Assembly (NCBI RefSeq): GCF_009708035.1
Contig: NZ_WMBQ01000002.1
Span: forward strand, 186,001-250,000
Length of the DNA: 64,000 bases
Direction: 5' to 3'
Source: Hyphomicrobium album
GTDB lineage: Bacteria; Pseudomonadota; Alphaproteobacteria; Rhizobiales; Hyphomicrobiaceae
Below, in pieces: positions 2,771-12,122 of the stretch (positions are counted from its first letter, which is position 1; every line of letters starts with the position of its first letter). A model generated the notes under the pieces. It did not search any database and had not been told where the DNA came from. It worked only from the letters and a program-made list of their open reading frames with translations. The translations under genes and the position numbers were made by a program.

Positions 2771-3322
2771 ATGAAAGTCCGTTACAGTCTGATCGCCGCA
2801 TTTGCGGTGATGTCCGCCCCCGTGTTCGCTCAGGATGCGCCGGCGCCTTCGACGCAGGAGTCTTCGCCGCCCGCGCAGACCGAGCCGATGGCACCCGCAA
2901 CTCCGCCGGCCGCCACCACCCCGTCGGCGGCCGATCCGGCGCCCGCGCCGGCGCCTGCTCCGGCTGCTCCCGATAAGGAAGCCGCCGCTCCTGCTCCCAG
3001 CACGTCCACCACCATGGCCTCCGGCGACCTGAAGGAGTCCGAGGACGACGCCAAGATGGTCCCGTCGCTGAACGCGACCGTCGACAAGGTCGAGGAAATG
3101 GACATCTTCGACGGCAACGGCAAGAAGATCGCCGAGGTCGATGCCGTCCTCGAGGACTCGGCCGGTGAAGTGAAGGGCGTCGCCATCGAGTACGGCGGCT
3201 TCCTCGGCTTCGGCGAGAGTGGCGCGATCCTGACCTTCGACCAGGTCAAGGCGCAGGACGGCAAGTTGATCACGACCCTCAGCGAGGATGAGCTGAAGAC
3301 GCTTCCGGCCTGGGACAAGTAA
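2771..3322 (+). CDS. Exported PRC-barrel domain protein
   Basis: A 183-residue protein with a cleavable signal (MKVRYSLIAAFAVMSAPVFA), a long Pro/Ala-rich linker (about 22-90) and a C-terminal PRC-barrel (about 100-183) with IFDGNGKKIAEVDAVLED and IEYGGFLGFGESG. The PRC-barrel fold is shared by RimM and photosynthetic reaction centre subunit H; exported versions are common in Rhizobiales and their role is unclear. The start is fixed by a strong ribosome site (AAGGAGGAG, 2758-2766) ahead of ATG 2771, rather than the in-frame start 48 bases upstream. A 12-bp hairpin follows the stop. Confidence 0.82.
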   Translation: MKVRYSLIAAFAVMSAPVFAQDAPAPSTQESSPPAQTEPMAPATPPAATTPSAADPAPAPAPAPAAPDKEAAAPAPSTSTTMASGDLKESEDDAKMVPSLNATVDKVEEMDIFDGNGKKIAEVDAVLEDSAGEVKGVAIEYGGFLGFGESGAILTFDQVKAQDGKLITTLSEDELKTLPAWDK

Positions 3323-3335
3323 GCCCCGACCTATC

Positions 3336-3373
3336 AATGCAGCGCGCGACGCTTCGGCACCGCGCGCTGCATT
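3336..3373 (+). terminator. 12-bp hairpin after PRC-barrel gene
   Basis: The arms AATGCAGCGCGC and GCGCGCTGCATT pair perfectly around a 14-base loop, starting 14 bases after the PRC-barrel stop codon. There is only a weak T run after it, so it may end transcription inefficiently or protect the mRNA 3' end. Confidence 0.5.
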
Positions 3374-3630
3374 TGCGCGTCTGAAAGAAACGCATCGTTA
3401 GGCATAGCCGGAACTGGCTCATCTTTGAGCACGCGCGCCTTCGGCACGGGCAACGGCCTATTGCTGCAGCACGATCGCCCGCTGCAGGGGCCGCGTAGAC
3501 GGCGTCCCCGCATCAACGCTGCCCAACAACCAAGCGCGACGAGTGCGGATCGAATTTGCCGCAGTAGACCGCAAAATCGTTTGTTAGCCTCTGGCAGGCA
3601 GCTTGGGCACGCATTGCCAGGGGCGGAGCC
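3374..3630. other. Intergenic stretch before PAS-GGDEF-EAL gene
   Basis: Together with the hairpin before it this makes a gene-free gap of about 308 bases. No convincing small gene, repeat or clear promoter was seen. The readings through it on both strands have no ribosome site and no recognisable protein features. It presumably holds the promoter and leader of the signalling gene at 3631. Confidence 0.4.
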
Positions 3631-5829
3631 ATGTTCGACAAGCCGACAACCAACACGCGCGACACCCGCCTCGGGCGCGCTCGCACCTTCGTTCGTCGCG
3701 CCGGCGAGCGCGCTGCCGGTTTCGGCGCTGCGCTGTGGGAAGCGCTCGACGGCAGCGGCAAGGAAGTGAGAAGCGCGCGCGCCGTTGCCGACGCCGCCGT
3801 CGCCACCGCCGCCACCGCGCATGCACGCCTGCGCGAAGCTCTCGAGATCCTGCCGCAGGGCATCGTCTTCCTCGACAACGAGGGGCGCTACATCCTGTGG
3901 AACCAGAAGTACGCCGACATCTACAAGCGCAGCGCCGACCTGTTCAAAGTCGGGGCACGGCTCGAGGACACTCTGCGGGTCGGCGTCGCCCGCGGCGACT
4001 ATCCCTCCGCTAACGGCCGCGAAGAAGCGTGGATCAAGGAGCGCCTCAATCTTCTCTACGAGCCCGGTTCCCAGCACGAGCAGGTTCTCGCCGACGGCCG
4101 CTGCATCCTCATCGAGGAACGCAAGACCGGCGACGGCGGCATCATCGGCCTGCGCATGGACATCACCGGCTTGAAGCAGCGCGAGGCCTCCTTCCGGCTG
4201 CTGTTCGACGAGAATCCTGTGCCGATGTTCGTCTTGCGCCGCGATACGCAGGGCTTCCTCGCCGCCAACGCCGCCGCCGTCTCGCACTACGGGTTCAGCC
4301 GCGAGGAGCTTCTCTGCATGCGCCTGCCCGACCTGCAGGTGGCAGACGACGCGCCGGAAGATGATAGCGCCGCGCCGTTCGAGACCAGCGTTACGACCTC
4401 CACGCACCGCGCGCGTGACGGCCGTGCCATGGAGGTGGTCTCCTTCTCCCGCCAGCTCGACTACGAGGGTACGCCGGCGCTGCTCATCGCCGTCATCGAC
4501 GTCACCGAGCGCAAGGAGGCCGAGGCGCGCATCGCCTACATGGCGCACCACGATTCCCTCACCGATCTCCCCAACCGCGTGCTGTTCCGCCAACATCTGT
4601 CGGACGCGCTGGCAAAGCGCTCACGCACCGGCGGCTGCGTCGGCGCACTGTGCATCGACCTCGACAACTTCAAGCTGGTGAACGACACGCTCGGTCATCC
4701 GGTCGGCGACCGGCTCTTGCAGGATGTGGCCGAGCGCATAAAGCGCGTCACCCGCGACCGCGAGACGGCCGCGCGGCTCGGCGGCGACGAGTTCGCGATG
4801 CTGGTGCCCGATGTGAAATCTCCGCAGGATCTGGCGGTGCTGGCGCAGCGGCTCATCGACGTCATCAGCGAGCCCTACATCACCGATGGCCACGTCCTGA
4901 CTGTTGGCACGACCATCGGCATCGCCGTCGCGCCCACCGACGGCGACGATGCCGACCGCCTGTTGCGCAACGCTGACCTCGCCCTCTACCGCGCCAAGGC
5001 CGACGGCAAATCCACCTTCCGCTTCTTCGAGCCGGAGATGGATGCCCAGGCGCAGGCCCGCCGCCAGCTCGAGATCGATCTCCGGTCGGCGCTCGCCGCC
5101 GAGGAGCTGGAGGTCCACTACCAGCCGCTCGTCGACCTCGAAACGCACGACGTCGTCGGCTTCGAGGCTCTGCTGCGCTGGCCGCACGCGTCGCGCGGCT
5201 ACATCCCGCCGTCCGAGTTCATTCCCCTCGCCGAGGAGACCGGTCTCATCACCCCGCTCGGCAACTTCGCGCTGCGCCGGGCTTGCGCCGACGCGACCGA
5301 ATGGCCGGAGCACGTCAAGCTTGCCGTGAACCTCTCGCCGATGCAGTTCCGCGTCGGCAATATCTTCGTCACCGTCAGCGAGGCGTTGCGCGAAAGCGGG
5401 CTGGCTCCGGAGCGGCTCGACCTGGAGATCACCGAGAGCGTGCTTCTGGATCGCACCGACCAGGTCATCGCTCACCTGCACGCGCTGCGCGCCCTCGGCG
5501 TGCGCATCTCGATGGACGACTTCGGCACCGGCTACTCGTCACTGAGCTACCTGCGCGCCTTCCCGTTCGACAAGATCAAGATCGACCGCTCGTTCGTGCG
5601 CGGCCTGCAGGGCAACCCGCAGACTTTGGCGATCGTGCGCGCGATCCTCGGCCTCGCCGAGGGTCTCGACATGCGCGTGGTCGCCGAAGGCATCGAGACG
5701 CAGGCGGATCTCGCCTGCCTTGCGGCGGAAGGCTGCAAGGAGGGGCAGGGCTTCTACTTCAGCGAAGCGCGTCCGCAGGGCGAAGTTCTGAAGCTGCTGC
5801 GTGAGGCACCGCGCCGCCAAGTCGCCTGA
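3631..5829 (+). CDS. PAS-PAS-GGDEF-EAL c-di-GMP signalling protein
   Basis: A 732-residue protein with no clear membrane segment. After a basic N-terminus come two PAS-like sensors (about 70-180 and 185-300), a GGDEF domain (about 305-465) and an EAL domain (about 480-725). The cyclase motif GGDEF is intact at 384-388. The phosphodiesterase signatures EAL (512-514), NLSPMQF, DDFGTGYSSL (from 629) and the downstream KIDRSFV helix are also intact. Both making and breaking of c-di-GMP are therefore possible; in such proteins one activity often dominates. It ends one base before the convergent ada gene. The stimulus is unknown. Confidence 0.9.
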   Translation: MFDKPTTNTRDTRLGRARTFVRRAGERAAGFGAALWEALDGSGKEVRSARAVADAAVATAATAHARLREALEILPQGIVFLDNEGRYILWNQKYADIYKRSADLFKVGARLEDTLRVGVARGDYPSANGREEAWIKERLNLLYEPGSQHEQVLADGRCILIEERKTGDGGIIGLRMDITGLKQREASFRLLFDENPVPMFVLRRDTQGFLAANAAAVSHYGFSREELLCMRLPDLQVADDAPEDDSAAPFETSVTTSTHRARDGRAMEVVSFSRQLDYEGTPALLIAVIDVTERKEAEARIAYMAHHDSLTDLPNRVLFRQHLSDALAKRSRTGGCVGALCIDLDNFKLVNDTLGHPVGDRLLQDVAERIKRVTRDRETAARLGGDEFAMLVPDVKSPQDLAVLAQRLIDVISEPYITDGHVLTVGTTIGIAVAPTDGDDADRLLRNADLALYRAKADGKSTFRFFEPEMDAQAQARRQLEIDLRSALAAEELEVHYQPLVDLETHDVVGFEALLRWPHASRGYIPPSEFIPLAEETGLITPLGNFALRRACADATEWPEHVKLAVNLSPMQFRVGNIFVTVSEALRESGLAPERLDLEITESVLLDRTDQVIAHLHALRALGVRISMDDFGTGYSSLSYLRAFPFDKIKIDRSFVRGLQGNPQTLAIVRAILGLAEGLDMRVVAEGIETQADLACLAAEGCKEGQGFYFSEARPQGEVLKLLREAPRRQVA

Positions 5830-7649: not shown

Positions 7650-7871
7650 TTAGCGGCCGAGGCGCCGCGCCTCGGCGCGGTCAAACGCCAGCTGCTCGGC
7701 GGGGGTGCACCACGGGTTGCCGTAGTAGCCCCAGCGGCCGTTGAAGCGCGTGCAGTCCTTCACCGGCGGCGGCGCGCTACGCACGCCTTTGCGGCTGCCG
7801 GCTTCCGACGACGCCCCATGTGCTGCCGTCAAAGCCATGGTGAGCGCGAAGAGGCTTATGAATCGCAGCAT
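7650..7871 (-). CDS. Small exported protein of unknown function
   Basis: A 73-residue protein with a signal peptide (MLRFISLFALTMALTAAHG) and a short mature part containing CTRFNGRWGYYGNPWCTPAEQ, so two Cys flank an aromatic Gly-rich segment. A ribosome-site-like CAGGTAG precedes the ATG. It lies 29 bases downstream of the lipase fusion on the same strand, so the two may be cotranscribed. No function is recognised; the Cys pair suggests a disulfide in the periplasm. Confidence 0.6.
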   Translation of the reverse strand: MLRFISLFALTMALTAAHGASSEAGSRKGVRSAPPPVKDCTRFNGRWGYYGNPWCTPAEQLAFDRAEARRLGR

Positions 7872-7900: not shown

Positions 7901-10660
7901 CTATCTAAGCTGGGAGGGGTCGATCTCAAAGGGGTTCTTTTGCTCGCGCGACATCGTCGAAGCCTTGATCTTCATTGTTTCCAGTAGCTCGCCATTGGTG
8001 CGGTCTAGAGAGAAGAGGTTGCCGGCCGCATCGAGGTAGTCGACCACCTTGCGCTTCCCACCCTTCACGCTCTTCTCCGACAAGGTTAGCTCAGCGCTGC
8101 CGGCCTCGTCCCATTCGCTCGACGCGGGGAGCCTGTAGATCCATTTCGCCTCGCCGGTATCGATCGCGCGCGCAAATATTGTCCGCGATGCTAGCGGTGA
8201 GCGGGCCTGGGGTTGGAACGGCGCGCTTTCGCTAGCGACATAATACATGAGCTTCAGCGCCGGATCGAAGACGGCCTTGCTCAGCTGCTTGCCGCCACTG
8301 ATCTTCCACTGATCGCCGGTCCACGTCTTGAGGCTAGAATCCCTTCCGACCGGCTTGCCCTCCGCCATGGTCGTCTCCGGATTGAAGAGGATTTGGTCAT
8401 CCGGGCCCCTCGAGTACGCGCGCCAATTTTGCTTGCCTGTCTTCACGTCGAGGGAGGTCATATAGTCGCGCGTGCCAAACTCAGCGCCCGACACGCTGAC
8501 CATAACCTGATCATCGACGACGTAGGGCAGGCGGTCTCCGACCTGACCTTTCTGGGGATCGCCGGTGCGGGTCTTCCACAGCTCCTTGCCGGTCTTGGCG
8601 TCGAGCGCGATGAGCGTCGTGTCGGACTCGTACTTGATGACCTTGCCGTCGGCGTAGGCGAGCCGTCCGCTGTTGGGCTCGTCGCAGCACATGACCGGAA
8701 TGACGGTGGGGTCCTGTTGCGCCACGTGGGTCCAGGCGACCGATGGGCTTTGATCGAGGTTCACCGCGACGACCTTGTTGGTGAGCGGCATGCTGACAAT
8801 AACCTTATCGTCGACCTGCAACGGCGCGAAGGCATCGCCGCCCGTCATCGGACCCGCCAGTGCCACCAGCGTGTTGCGGCCCTCGTTGAGTTTGCGTGCT
8901 TCAATAGACGCTAGCGCGCCGCTCTCGGCAGCATCGATGCGGGTTGCCGGCTCAAGCCCCTTCATGCTGGCCACAAGTTCCACCTTCGCCGCTTTGTCGT
9001 CGGCGGGGGGCGCAATAGTAGCTTGAGCGAGCAGGGTCTTTACGTCGACACCCTGCCGCTCCCTGATCTCATCGTTGACTGGGCAGCCAGAAAATTCCGG
9101 ACCTTTCCCCGATTCGAAAGTCTTCAGCCGGCAGTCGAGGTAGACGTTGGCGCTGGCCAGGGTTTGCAACACTGCGTCCTTTTCCGACGCGTGGCTGTCG
9201 AGATATGCCGTCGCGGCGTCTGCCTGGGCGCGCTTGGCGATAGTGATCACGTCACGGATGTAGGTAGCGAAGGCGGTGCAGTTGAGTAGCGAGGAATGGG
9301 AGATACGGCACTCGTGACGCTCGGTCGCGTCGCCGTCCTCGAGTTGAGTGAAGCCGCGCGCCAGCGCGTTTCTGCCGACGAACATGGGCACCGTTCCATC
9401 ACCCTCGGTCCATGGCGGTCGGGCGACGTCCTCGATCACCCAGACCGGCGTGCTCCATGGCAACCACCCCCACCAAGTCGATTTCTTCGTGATCTCGAAG
9501 GAAGCATCAGTCTTCTCCGAGTTGCTCGCGAAGTACTTCACCTTCACGTTGGCAGGGAACTTGTACTGCGCCAGCCGGCAGAGAAATGCCCGCGCTTTGG
9601 GGAGTGTCTCGGCCAGGAAGCCATAGAACTCTTTTGTCGTGCGGGATGGCGGCTTCGTCGCTGGCCAACCCATCTCCTCCCATGCCTTCGCGTCGAAGAT
9701 CGAGAACTTGTCGCCGCTTCCCCCGATATCGGCGATGTGCGGCGGCCAGTCGTCGGGCGGCATGGTGTAGTGACTCATGCAATCCGCGGTGTGTTCGTGA
9801 TAGATCGGAAGCAGTTGATAGACGCTCGGGAACAACGCCCCGTAGTCGTTCAGCGCCTTGGCCACAGTTCCCTTGTCGAGCCTGTCCTTCAGCAGGCCCA
9901 GCATCCCGCCGAAGCTCTTGGCCATGAGTGTGAAACCGCTTGCCAGCGATTTGATCGCCTTGGGCGCGCCGAAGTGCGGCGTGCCGAGGAAGATCACTTC
10001 CTTGATGTTGAGCGGCTTGGGCTGCGGTGCATTCGCACCCTCGACGCGACAACTGGGCATGCCCCCATAGCGCCGGAACCATTCCTTGACGACGAGACCG
10101 CCCATGCTGTGGGCAATGAAGCGGATCTCGCGGTCCTTGAATTGATCGTACTGCTTGGTGTCGCACAGCCAGTCGTTCAGTTTCTCCGCTGTGCGCCCGT
10201 TGTCCTGGCGCCAATCATAGGGAAAGTACGCGAGCAGATCGACGCCGAGCTGCGCGTTCTTGATCTCCTGGATTCCGCTGGCATAGGCATCGACCTCGTG
10301 CACGTTGCCGAGTTTGAAGTCGTAAAGGATTGTCGCACGCACGGCGCCGTCGTCGCCGTCGAGGATCGATAGGTCCGGTGTCGACGTATCGTAGAGTCCC
10401 CACAAGACATTGCTACCGTTCGGTGTGGTTCGCTCGAGCCGCGATCCGATTATGCCCGGTACGAAGATGAAGAGTGGATAGTTCGCACGGACAGCGTTCT
10501 TCTGCGCCGCGAGGAACCCGGGCAAAACGGTGCCGAGTTGCTGCTGAACTTCCGGCTTCGCAGTATTGAGAAGCGCAAAGTCGTCCGCCTGGGCCAGCGG
10601 CAGGGTGGCAAAGAGCCAAAGCCCGGCGAAGCTCAACCGCCTATGCGATCTGAAATGCAT
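7901..10660 (-). CDS. Exported LCAT-like lipase fused to partial methanol-dehydrogenase-like domain
   Basis: A 919-residue exported protein (signal MHFRSHRRLSFAGLWLFA, cut near AQA). The first half is an alpha/beta hydrolase of the lecithin:cholesterol acyltransferase/lipase type: FVPGIIGSRLER, nucleophile elbow AHSMGG (Ser185), GTPHFG, then candidate Asp421 (DGTVPM) and His455. From about residue 610 it resembles the front half of PQQ methanol dehydrogenases (MxaF/XoxF): VMCCD with the vicinal Cys pair 658-659, IALDAKTGKELWK, SGAEFG (Glu727), TWTGDQWKISGG and EWDEAG (Asp851). The GNP metal-ligand segment and the back half of the propeller are missing, so dehydrogenase activity is unlikely. 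Start 10660 is chosen for its GAGG site and signal peptide. Confidence 0.85.
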   Translation of the reverse strand: MHFRSHRRLSFAGLWLFATLPLAQADDFALLNTAKPEVQQQLGTVLPGFLAAQKNAVRANYPLFIFVPGIIGSRLERTTPNGSNVLWGLYDTSTPDLSILDGDDGAVRATILYDFKLGNVHEVDAYASGIQEIKNAQLGVDLLAYFPYDWRQDNGRTAEKLNDWLCDTKQYDQFKDREIRFIAHSMGGLVVKEWFRRYGGMPSCRVEGANAPQPKPLNIKEVIFLGTPHFGAPKAIKSLASGFTLMAKSFGGMLGLLKDRLDKGTVAKALNDYGALFPSVYQLLPIYHEHTADCMSHYTMPPDDWPPHIADIGGSGDKFSIFDAKAWEEMGWPATKPPSRTTKEFYGFLAETLPKARAFLCRLAQYKFPANVKVKYFASNSEKTDASFEITKKSTWWGWLPWSTPVWVIEDVARPPWTEGDGTVPMFVGRNALARGFTQLEDGDATERHECRISHSSLLNCTAFATYIRDVITIAKRAQADAATAYLDSHASEKDAVLQTLASANVYLDCRLKTFESGKGPEFSGCPVNDEIRERQGVDVKTLLAQATIAPPADDKAAKVELVASMKGLEPATRIDAAESGALASIEARKLNEGRNTLVALAGPMTGGDAFAPLQVDDKVIVSMPLTNKVVAVNLDQSPSVAWTHVAQQDPTVIPVMCCDEPNSGRLAYADGKVIKYESDTTLIALDAKTGKELWKTRTGDPQKGQVGDRLPYVVDDQVMVSVSGAEFGTRDYMTSLDVKTGKQNWRAYSRGPDDQILFNPETTMAEGKPVGRDSSLKTWTGDQWKISGGKQLSKAVFDPALKLMYYVASESAPFQPQARSPLASRTIFARAIDTGEAKWIYRLPASSEWDEAGSAELTLSEKSVKGGKRKVVDYLDAAGNLFSLDRTNGELLETMKIKASTMSREQKNPFEIDPSQLR

Positions 10661-10835
10661 TTTGCGCCTCGTGCGCTGAAACGATCGGTCGGAAAAACTC
10701 ACCGGCACGAGCACGTGCCAGTACGAACGGAAGAATAGAAGAAAGCGCACGACTTAAGCGTGCATTGTGCCGCGCGCGGGCGCGGAAGGCAATCCGCTCA
10801 CGTGACAAACTTGATCGATGGGTGGCTTGCTTTGC

Positions 10836-12122
10836 CTATTTCGGCCGGATTTGTCCGTCGCCGCGGACCACGTACTTGAAGCTCGTCAGCTGCTCGACGC
10901 CGACGGGCCCGCGCGCGTGCAGCTTGCCGGTGGCGATGCCGATCTCGCCACCGAAGCCGAACTCGCCGCCGTCGGCGAACTGAGTCGAGGCGTTGTGCAG
11001 CACGATGGCGCTGTCGACCTCGCGCATGAAGCGCTCCGCCGTCGCCGTGTTGGCGGTGATGATGGCGTCGGTGTGCTGCGTGCTGTGCCCGGCGATGTGG
11101 GCGATGGCGCCGGCGACGCCGTCGACCGTCTTTACCGAGATGATGGCGTCGAGATATTCCGTTGTCCAGTCGGTGTCGGCGGCCGGCTTCACGCGCGCGT
11201 CGGCCTTCTGCGTCGCCGCGTCGCCGCGCACCTCGCAGCCGTCGTCGAGCAGCGCCTTGACGAGCGCGGGAAGAACGGCGGCCGGCGCCGCCTTGTCGAC
11301 GAGTAGCGTTTCGGTGGCGCCGCACACGCCGGTACGCCGCATCTTGGCATTGAGCACGACCTCGACTGCCATGCCCAGGTCGGCATCCTTGTCGACGTAG
11401 GTGTGGCACAGCCCTTCGAGGTGGGCGAATACCGGCACGCGCGCTTCCTTCTGCACGCGCTCCACCAGGCTCTTGCCGCCGCGCGGCACAATCACGTCGA
11501 TCGAGCCGTCGAGACCCGCGAGCATGTGGCCGACCGCGGCGCGATCGGCGATCGGCACGAGCTGGATCGCCGCCTCGGGCAGCCCGGCGCTCTTCAATCC
11601 GGAGGCCATCGCCGCGTGGATGGCGAGCGAGGAGTTGAGGCTTTCGGAGCCTGCGCGCAGGATAGCGGCGTTGCCGGCCTTCACAGCGAGCGCGCCGGCA
11701 TCCGCCGTCACGTTCGGGCGGCTTTCGTAGATGATGCCGATGACGCCGAGCGGCACGCGCACGCGCTGGAACTTCAGCCCGTTGGGTCGCGACCATTCGG
11801 CCAGCACGGTGCCGACGGGATCGGGCAGCTCGGCGATCTCCTCGACGCCCGTCGCCATGGCGGCGATGCGCGCCCCGTTGAGCAGCAGGCGGTCGATGAA
11901 TGCGGCCGGGCGTCCCGCCGTGCGCGCCGCCTCGATGTCCTTGGTGTTGGCGGCGAGGATTTGCGGCGTCGCCTCGCGCAGCGCCTTGGCGGCGGCGCGC
12001 AGTGCCTTGGTCTTGGCTTCCGGTGTGGCGAGCGCGAGAGCGTGCGCGGCTTCGCGTGCCCGCCGGCCGATGGCGAGCATCGCTCCCTCGGTCGCGGTGT
12101 CGATGCGCTCGGGCTTGTTCAT
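10836..12122 (-). CDS. proA: Gamma-glutamyl phosphate reductase ProA
   Basis: Reduces gamma-glutamyl phosphate to glutamate semialdehyde with NADPH, the second step of proline synthesis. The 428-residue protein is of normal length and has the aldehyde-dehydrogenase fold with the catalytic Cys267 in [11 protein letters not shown], the [20 protein letters not shown] substrate segment and a C-terminal [24 protein letters not shown]. It starts one base after the proB stop codon, so proB and proA form an operon and their products probably act together to channel the labile intermediate. Confidence 0.97.

Follow-up and report, generated by a model that had tools for sequence, protein, structure and literature searches.

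An LCAT-like lipase in one open frame with a truncated XoxF-like quinoprotein module in Hyphomicrobium album

What is a gene that begins as a lipase and ends as part of a methanol dehydrogenase, and what could the second part be doing there? The question is raised by a minus-strand gene in a 64,000-nucleotide stretch of the Hyphomicrobium album genome (contig NZ_WMBQ01000002.1, positions 186,001 to 250,000; hereafter the window), which a first-pass annotation made from the letters of the DNA had described as a lipase fused to an incomplete domain of the MxaF/XoxF type. That description is borne out by matches, far beyond chance, to the Pfam family PF02450, the NCBIfam model TIGR03075 and the solved structure PDB 6oc5. 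The joining of a lipase and a truncated quinoprotein in one open frame is confirmed as a real architecture. Both parts come from known families; the combination appears to be new and is so far a singleton architecture. The annotation knew of no described lipase-quinoprotein fusion, and our search of a literature collection that covers few subscription journals likewise found no description of one.

The open frame and its lipase half

The frame runs without stops from 10750 to 7901 on the minus strand (949 codons, stop at 7903-7901), and residues are numbered here from the upstream GTG at 10750. Of the two possible starts, the ATG at 10660 is favoured, since it is preceded by a GAGG and a terminator-like hairpin (10723-10700) lies between the GTG and the ATG, the hairpin being weak support because such hairpins are equally common in shuffled sequence. 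A search for promoter-like sites near the gene found none. The first 25 residues from the ATG resemble a signal peptide when read by eye, and the protein is putatively exported. Coordinates of all features are collected in Table 1.

Table 1. Features of the fusion gene and its surroundings (positions in the window; residues counted from GTG 10750).
Feature	Position	Strand	Basis or remark
Fusion gene	7901..10660	-	919 aa from ATG 10660; 949 aa from upstream GTG 10750; open frame
Signal-peptide-like stretch, residues 31-55	10586..10660	-	Judged by eye
LCAT-like alpha/beta hydrolase, about residues 90-490	9281..10483	-	PF02450; alignment with 12 relatives
Nucleophile Ser215 in AHSMGG	10106..10108	-	Invariant in 13/13 aligned sequences
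Acid Asp451 in GDGTVP	9398..9400	-	Invariant in 13/13 aligned sequences
His485 in SHSSLL	9296..9298	-	Invariant in 13/13 aligned sequences
Linker, residues 491-637	8840..9280	-	No separate match in Pfam or NCBIfam
Truncated XoxF-like module, residues 638-930	7961..8839	-	NCBIfam, solved-structure search, alignment, predicted structure
Vicinal Cys688-Cys689, retained	8684..8689	-	Cys in 81/81 XoxF
C-terminal tail, residues 931-949	7904..7960	-	Not alignable to XoxF continuation; low-confidence end of model
Terminator-like hairpin, between proA and fusion ATG	10700..10723	-	Weak: 3 such sites found vs 2.8 expected
proA-like gene, neighbour of insertion	10836..12122	-	75-86% identical in 7/7 other congeneric genomes
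Small ORF, neighbour across insertion	7650..7871	-	52-58% identical, beside proA in 5/7 congeneric genomes

An artefact of assembly or sequencing that joined two genes is highly improbable. The fusion is known from one genome only, as an artefact would be, but the assembly comprises 3 contigs with a completeness score of 100%, base composition is even across the join, and no near copy of either half turned up elsewhere in the genome, the dehydrogenases being at most 48% identical.

The N-terminal part belongs to the LCAT family by its Pfam score (PF02450, E 7.7e-9; 35.7 bits, above the cut-off of 21). In an alignment of the fusion with 12 relatives picked from 23, Ser215, Asp451 and His485 are invariant, and we take them to be the family's catalytic triad of nucleophile Ser, acid Asp and His. 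As in LCAT, lysosomal phospholipase A2 and LCAT-like bacterial esterases, the motifs AHSMGG, GTPHFG, GDGTVP and the His follow one another in order; unlike those proteins, the fusion is only 21-27% identical to its 12 aligned relatives and carries a quinoprotein part seen on none of the lipase relatives examined. When the lipase part was searched by sequence against solved structures, no lipase came back, only isomerase matches at chance level, so the assignment rests on PF02450 and the alignment. Structures were predicted for the lipase and quinoprotein parts separately, and that of the lipase is poor (pLDDT 51); its best Foldseek matches are Tle4, lysosomal phospholipase A2 and LCAT at TM 0.25-0.28, which from so weak a model are consistent with the family only. 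Because the protein starts like a signal peptide and the model that matched Tle4 is weak, we set aside a reading as a type VI effector. If exported, the esterase would have extracytoplasmic lipids or esters as its substrates, acting via Ser215-Asp451-His485.

LCAT-like matches were also seen inside two larger open frames, of 2025 and 1958 aa (L050 and L053, in genomes G1054 and G975), and inside frames of 865-921 aa on five viral-classed contigs (L155, L156, L158, L160 and L161). Other large proteins with an LCAT-like domain may therefore exist.

A truncated propeller and its cofactor site

The C-terminal part is related to methanol dehydrogenases of the XoxF type. Residues 639-929 match positions 61-345 of the 530-position methanol/ethanol dehydrogenase profile TIGR03075 with E 7.7e-65, the profile search that the first-pass annotation had proposed thus giving a clear quinoprotein match; the score of 219.5 bits lies below the cut-off of 480.05, and truncation lowers it. 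Pfam PQQ repeats match as well (E 2.9e-11). Among solved structures the nearest are XoxF enzymes, led by the lanthanide XoxF 6oc5 (E 4.7e-81). The matching region corresponds to XoxF residues 71-364 of 601, with similarity starting near residue 638 (weaker before) and ending at about 928, where XoxF continues for some 240 residues. Like XoxF (PDB 6oc5, 6dam, 4mae), residues 638-930 align with few gaps, and identity to XoxF at genome loci is 42-50% (best 80 of at least 572 relatives). A further family, acido-empty-quinoprotein group A (TIGR04528), is comparable by name as a quinoprotein relative without PQQ; it differs in that the fusion reaches 88.7 bits against a cut-off of 650, a match much weaker than that to TIGR03075.

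An AlphaFold2 model of the quinoprotein part, built with 30 sequences, is moderately confident (pLDDT 74, pTM 0.76) and places its strands in five groups of four (644-676, 697-728, 737-779, 826-873 and 889-927). A Foldseek search with this model finds XoxF 6dam first (TM 0.71 by query length, rmsd 3.5). The five strand groups suggest that about five of the eight XoxF blades are kept and about the last three absent; with similarity ending at XoxF residue 364 of 601, this is not a complete eight-bladed propeller. The annotation was thus right that the propeller is truncated, although what is missing appears to be less than the half it had named. An arc of five blades out of eight exposes edge strands and may be unstable as a fold. 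Searching the source genome with the missing C-terminal half of XoxF revealed no orphan copy: all 6 matches fall in complete dehydrogenases. Besides the fusion, this genome holds six PQQ-dependent alcohol dehydrogenase frames, ranging from XoxF-like ones at 46-48% identity down to one at 29%.

We compared the module with 81 XoxF sequences, comprising the best 80 of at least 572 relatives and one from a viral contig. Of 149 columns at least 95% conserved in this set, the fusion keeps 90 and has lost 59, and the losses cluster at 818-856 (16 of 25 lost) and 873-886 (7 of 11). Conservation is high at 800-816 (12 of 12 kept) and 679-695 (12 of 15, with all of 679-690 kept). Within windows drawn by eye around the W-motifs, 24 of 30 conserved columns are kept, against 66 of 119 elsewhere (p 0.02).

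Several losses fall on the cofactor site. The metal ligands of SolV XoxF, as given in PMC11845868, are Glu172, Asn256, Asp299 and Asp301. By alignment two of the four are kept (Glu172 as Glu757, Asp299 as Asp881) and two are replaced, Asn256 by Glu841 (N841E) and Asp301 by Ala883 (D883A). The Asp corresponding to Asp301 was shown to be essential in XoxF, according to PMC8546591. One dehydrogenase of the same genome (L004), taken as MxaF-type, also has Ala at the Asp301 position but keeps the Asn at the Asn256 position. Further conserved residues are replaced in the fusion (R908A, R694S, W823L and W825K), at positions that presumably contact PQQ. The annotation's observation that the GNP metal-ligand segment is replaced thus stands, but as a list of the losses it was incomplete. 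Like XoxF, the fusion retains the vicinal Cys pair, the metal Glu and the Asp299-type Asp; unlike XoxF, it lacks about three blades, has the metal Asn and the lanthanide Asp replaced, and carries its module behind a lipase.

This pattern of a kept W-motif core with losses at the site suggests a fold that is kept while the cofactor site has been dismantled. We consider it somewhat probable, on balance, that the protein is an exported LCAT/phospholipase-like serine esterase carrying a catalytically dead XoxF remnant that serves as a scaffold or binding surface. Retaining most of its W-motif core, the five-blade module would then be a folded support rather than an oxidoreductase, and candidate partners of its surface are the envelope, the substrate or the protein itself. 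The first-pass annotation had offered either a binding module or a response to PQQ or lanthanide. The former is compatible with our data; the latter is unsupported, because the site is largely dismantled and the ligands Asn256 and Asp301 are replaced, and the module is better read as non-catalytic, serving binding or folding.

The kept Cys-Cys, Glu757 and Asp881 could nevertheless be a sign that some redox or metal role persists. Together with the intact columns 679-690 and 800-816 and the presence of six complete PQQ dehydrogenases in the genome, they speak for a truncated propeller that binds PQQ or metal, or that completes itself with a second copy or with the XoxF of the cell, either of which would couple the lipase to methanol oxidation. 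We regard this as improbable in view of the replacements at the Asn841, Asp883, Arg908, Arg694 and Trp823 positions and the absence of about three blades. It is a speculative proposal, and an unlikely one, that the five-blade remnant works as an adaptor, attaching the lipase to the cell's methanol dehydrogenase or to its cytochrome, or that it joins a second copy of itself to form a new propeller; a quinoprotein fold would then have been turned into a targeting or assembly domain for a lipase.

Origin, distribution and maintenance

The fusion gene forms a lineage-specific insertion of about 2.9 kb between a proA-like gene, which we take to be proA, and a small ORF that had no match in a Pfam search. 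In five of the seven other congeneric genomes (G001, G002, G003, G005 and G006) proA is closely followed by the small ORF with no fusion between them; in the remaining two (G004 and G007) the stretch examined showed neither small ORF nor fusion. A search for transposon ends at the insertion found only short scattered repeats. The GC content of the gene is 60.8%, against 64-72% in the other tabulated ORFs. Third-position GC is a less clean measure, at 78% for the fusion and mostly 81-93% for the other ORFs, four of whose frames lie at 62-72%. Because both halves share this atypical composition (61.3% and 60.6%), the gene probably entered the lineage already fused, as one piece. A tree places the fusion within a group of 25 mostly Bradyrhizobium XoxF proteins, a placement made unreliable by a branch that is far too long, at 3.89 changes per column where the median is 0.068.

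The first-pass annotation had looked to other species for support in the form of a conserved fusion. This did not emerge: no other copy was found in any of the genome, plasmid and contig collections searched, several of them by sampling. Searched with the lipase part, 3 of 103 family genomes matched, the source included, and none held a second fusion. In overlapping samples 11 of 385 genomes of the class, 10 of 397 of the order and 11 of 398 of the phylum matched. Apart from the source's own, these lipase matches are weak: the best has E 2.2e-13, and their length does not exceed about 320 residues. With the whole protein, 30 of 60 relatives matched, the source included, and every other match begins at residue 554 or later. 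Pattern scans of genome and viral contigs with the lipase part, which use exact 8-residue words and reach close kin only, found no relative. A second scan of genome contigs yielded at least 598 stretches and at least 572 relatives; no lipase lay beside XoxF at E 1e-3 within the stretches of the best 80 of these relatives. None of 329 plasmid records covers 80% of the fusion protein, and the lipase part alone matched 12 plasmid records weakly. Phages gave no match, PHROGs one at chance level and PADLOC none. An 859 aa frame in genome G044 was considered as another fusion and rejected, its translation reading as a complete XoxF with unrelated sequence upstream. The absence of a second fusion is fairly firm for the 103 genus and family genomes and weak beyond them.

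During these searches a complete 603-aa XoxF was seen at 2881-4692 of a viral-classed contig of 78,717 bases (L074, IMGVR_UViG_3300048670_001593). Its neighbours are an amidoligase-like gene, an ORF with weak likeness to metalloproteases and an ORF that falls slightly short of the cut-off for DoxX. A phage may carry this methanol dehydrogenase, or some of the contig may come from a host.

Known from one species, with 59 of its 149 conserved columns lost, its last blades missing without a partner in the genome and its branch so long, the XoxF part could be passive baggage en route to decay, left when a lipase gene became joined to a damaged copy of xoxF. This accidental fusion is the main rival to the reading as a dead but serving module, though we consider it a minor possibility. 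Mean identity of the XoxF part to 82 XoxF genes (the best 80 of at least 572 relatives and L002 and L003 from the same genome) is 57.5, 69.4 and 52.8% at codon positions 1, 2 and 3, with second positions best conserved, an identity that covers the time before the fusion too and does not by itself prove present use. When three XoxF genes were decayed neutrally in simulation to 48% identity, 5.5-6.1 stops arose on average and 0 of 300 runs stayed stop-free for each starting gene, whereas the roughly 290 codons of the XoxF part, at about 47% identity, contain no stop. Both the codon-position bias and the stop-free frame argue against prolonged neutral decay. The mostly kept W-motif core points in the same direction, and at 46-48% identity to the nearest dehydrogenases of its own genome the remnant is too distant to be a fresh copy of any of them.

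Possible reuse of a quinoprotein fold

If the module is folded and under selection, the fusion would be a case in which an enzyme fold that depends on metal and PQQ was shortened to about five blades and took on a new, non-catalytic role as an appendage to an unrelated enzyme. Such reuse would bear on the gain and loss of blades in beta-propellers, and it carries a warning for annotation in that a match to a PQQ-dehydrogenase domain need not imply methanol oxidation.
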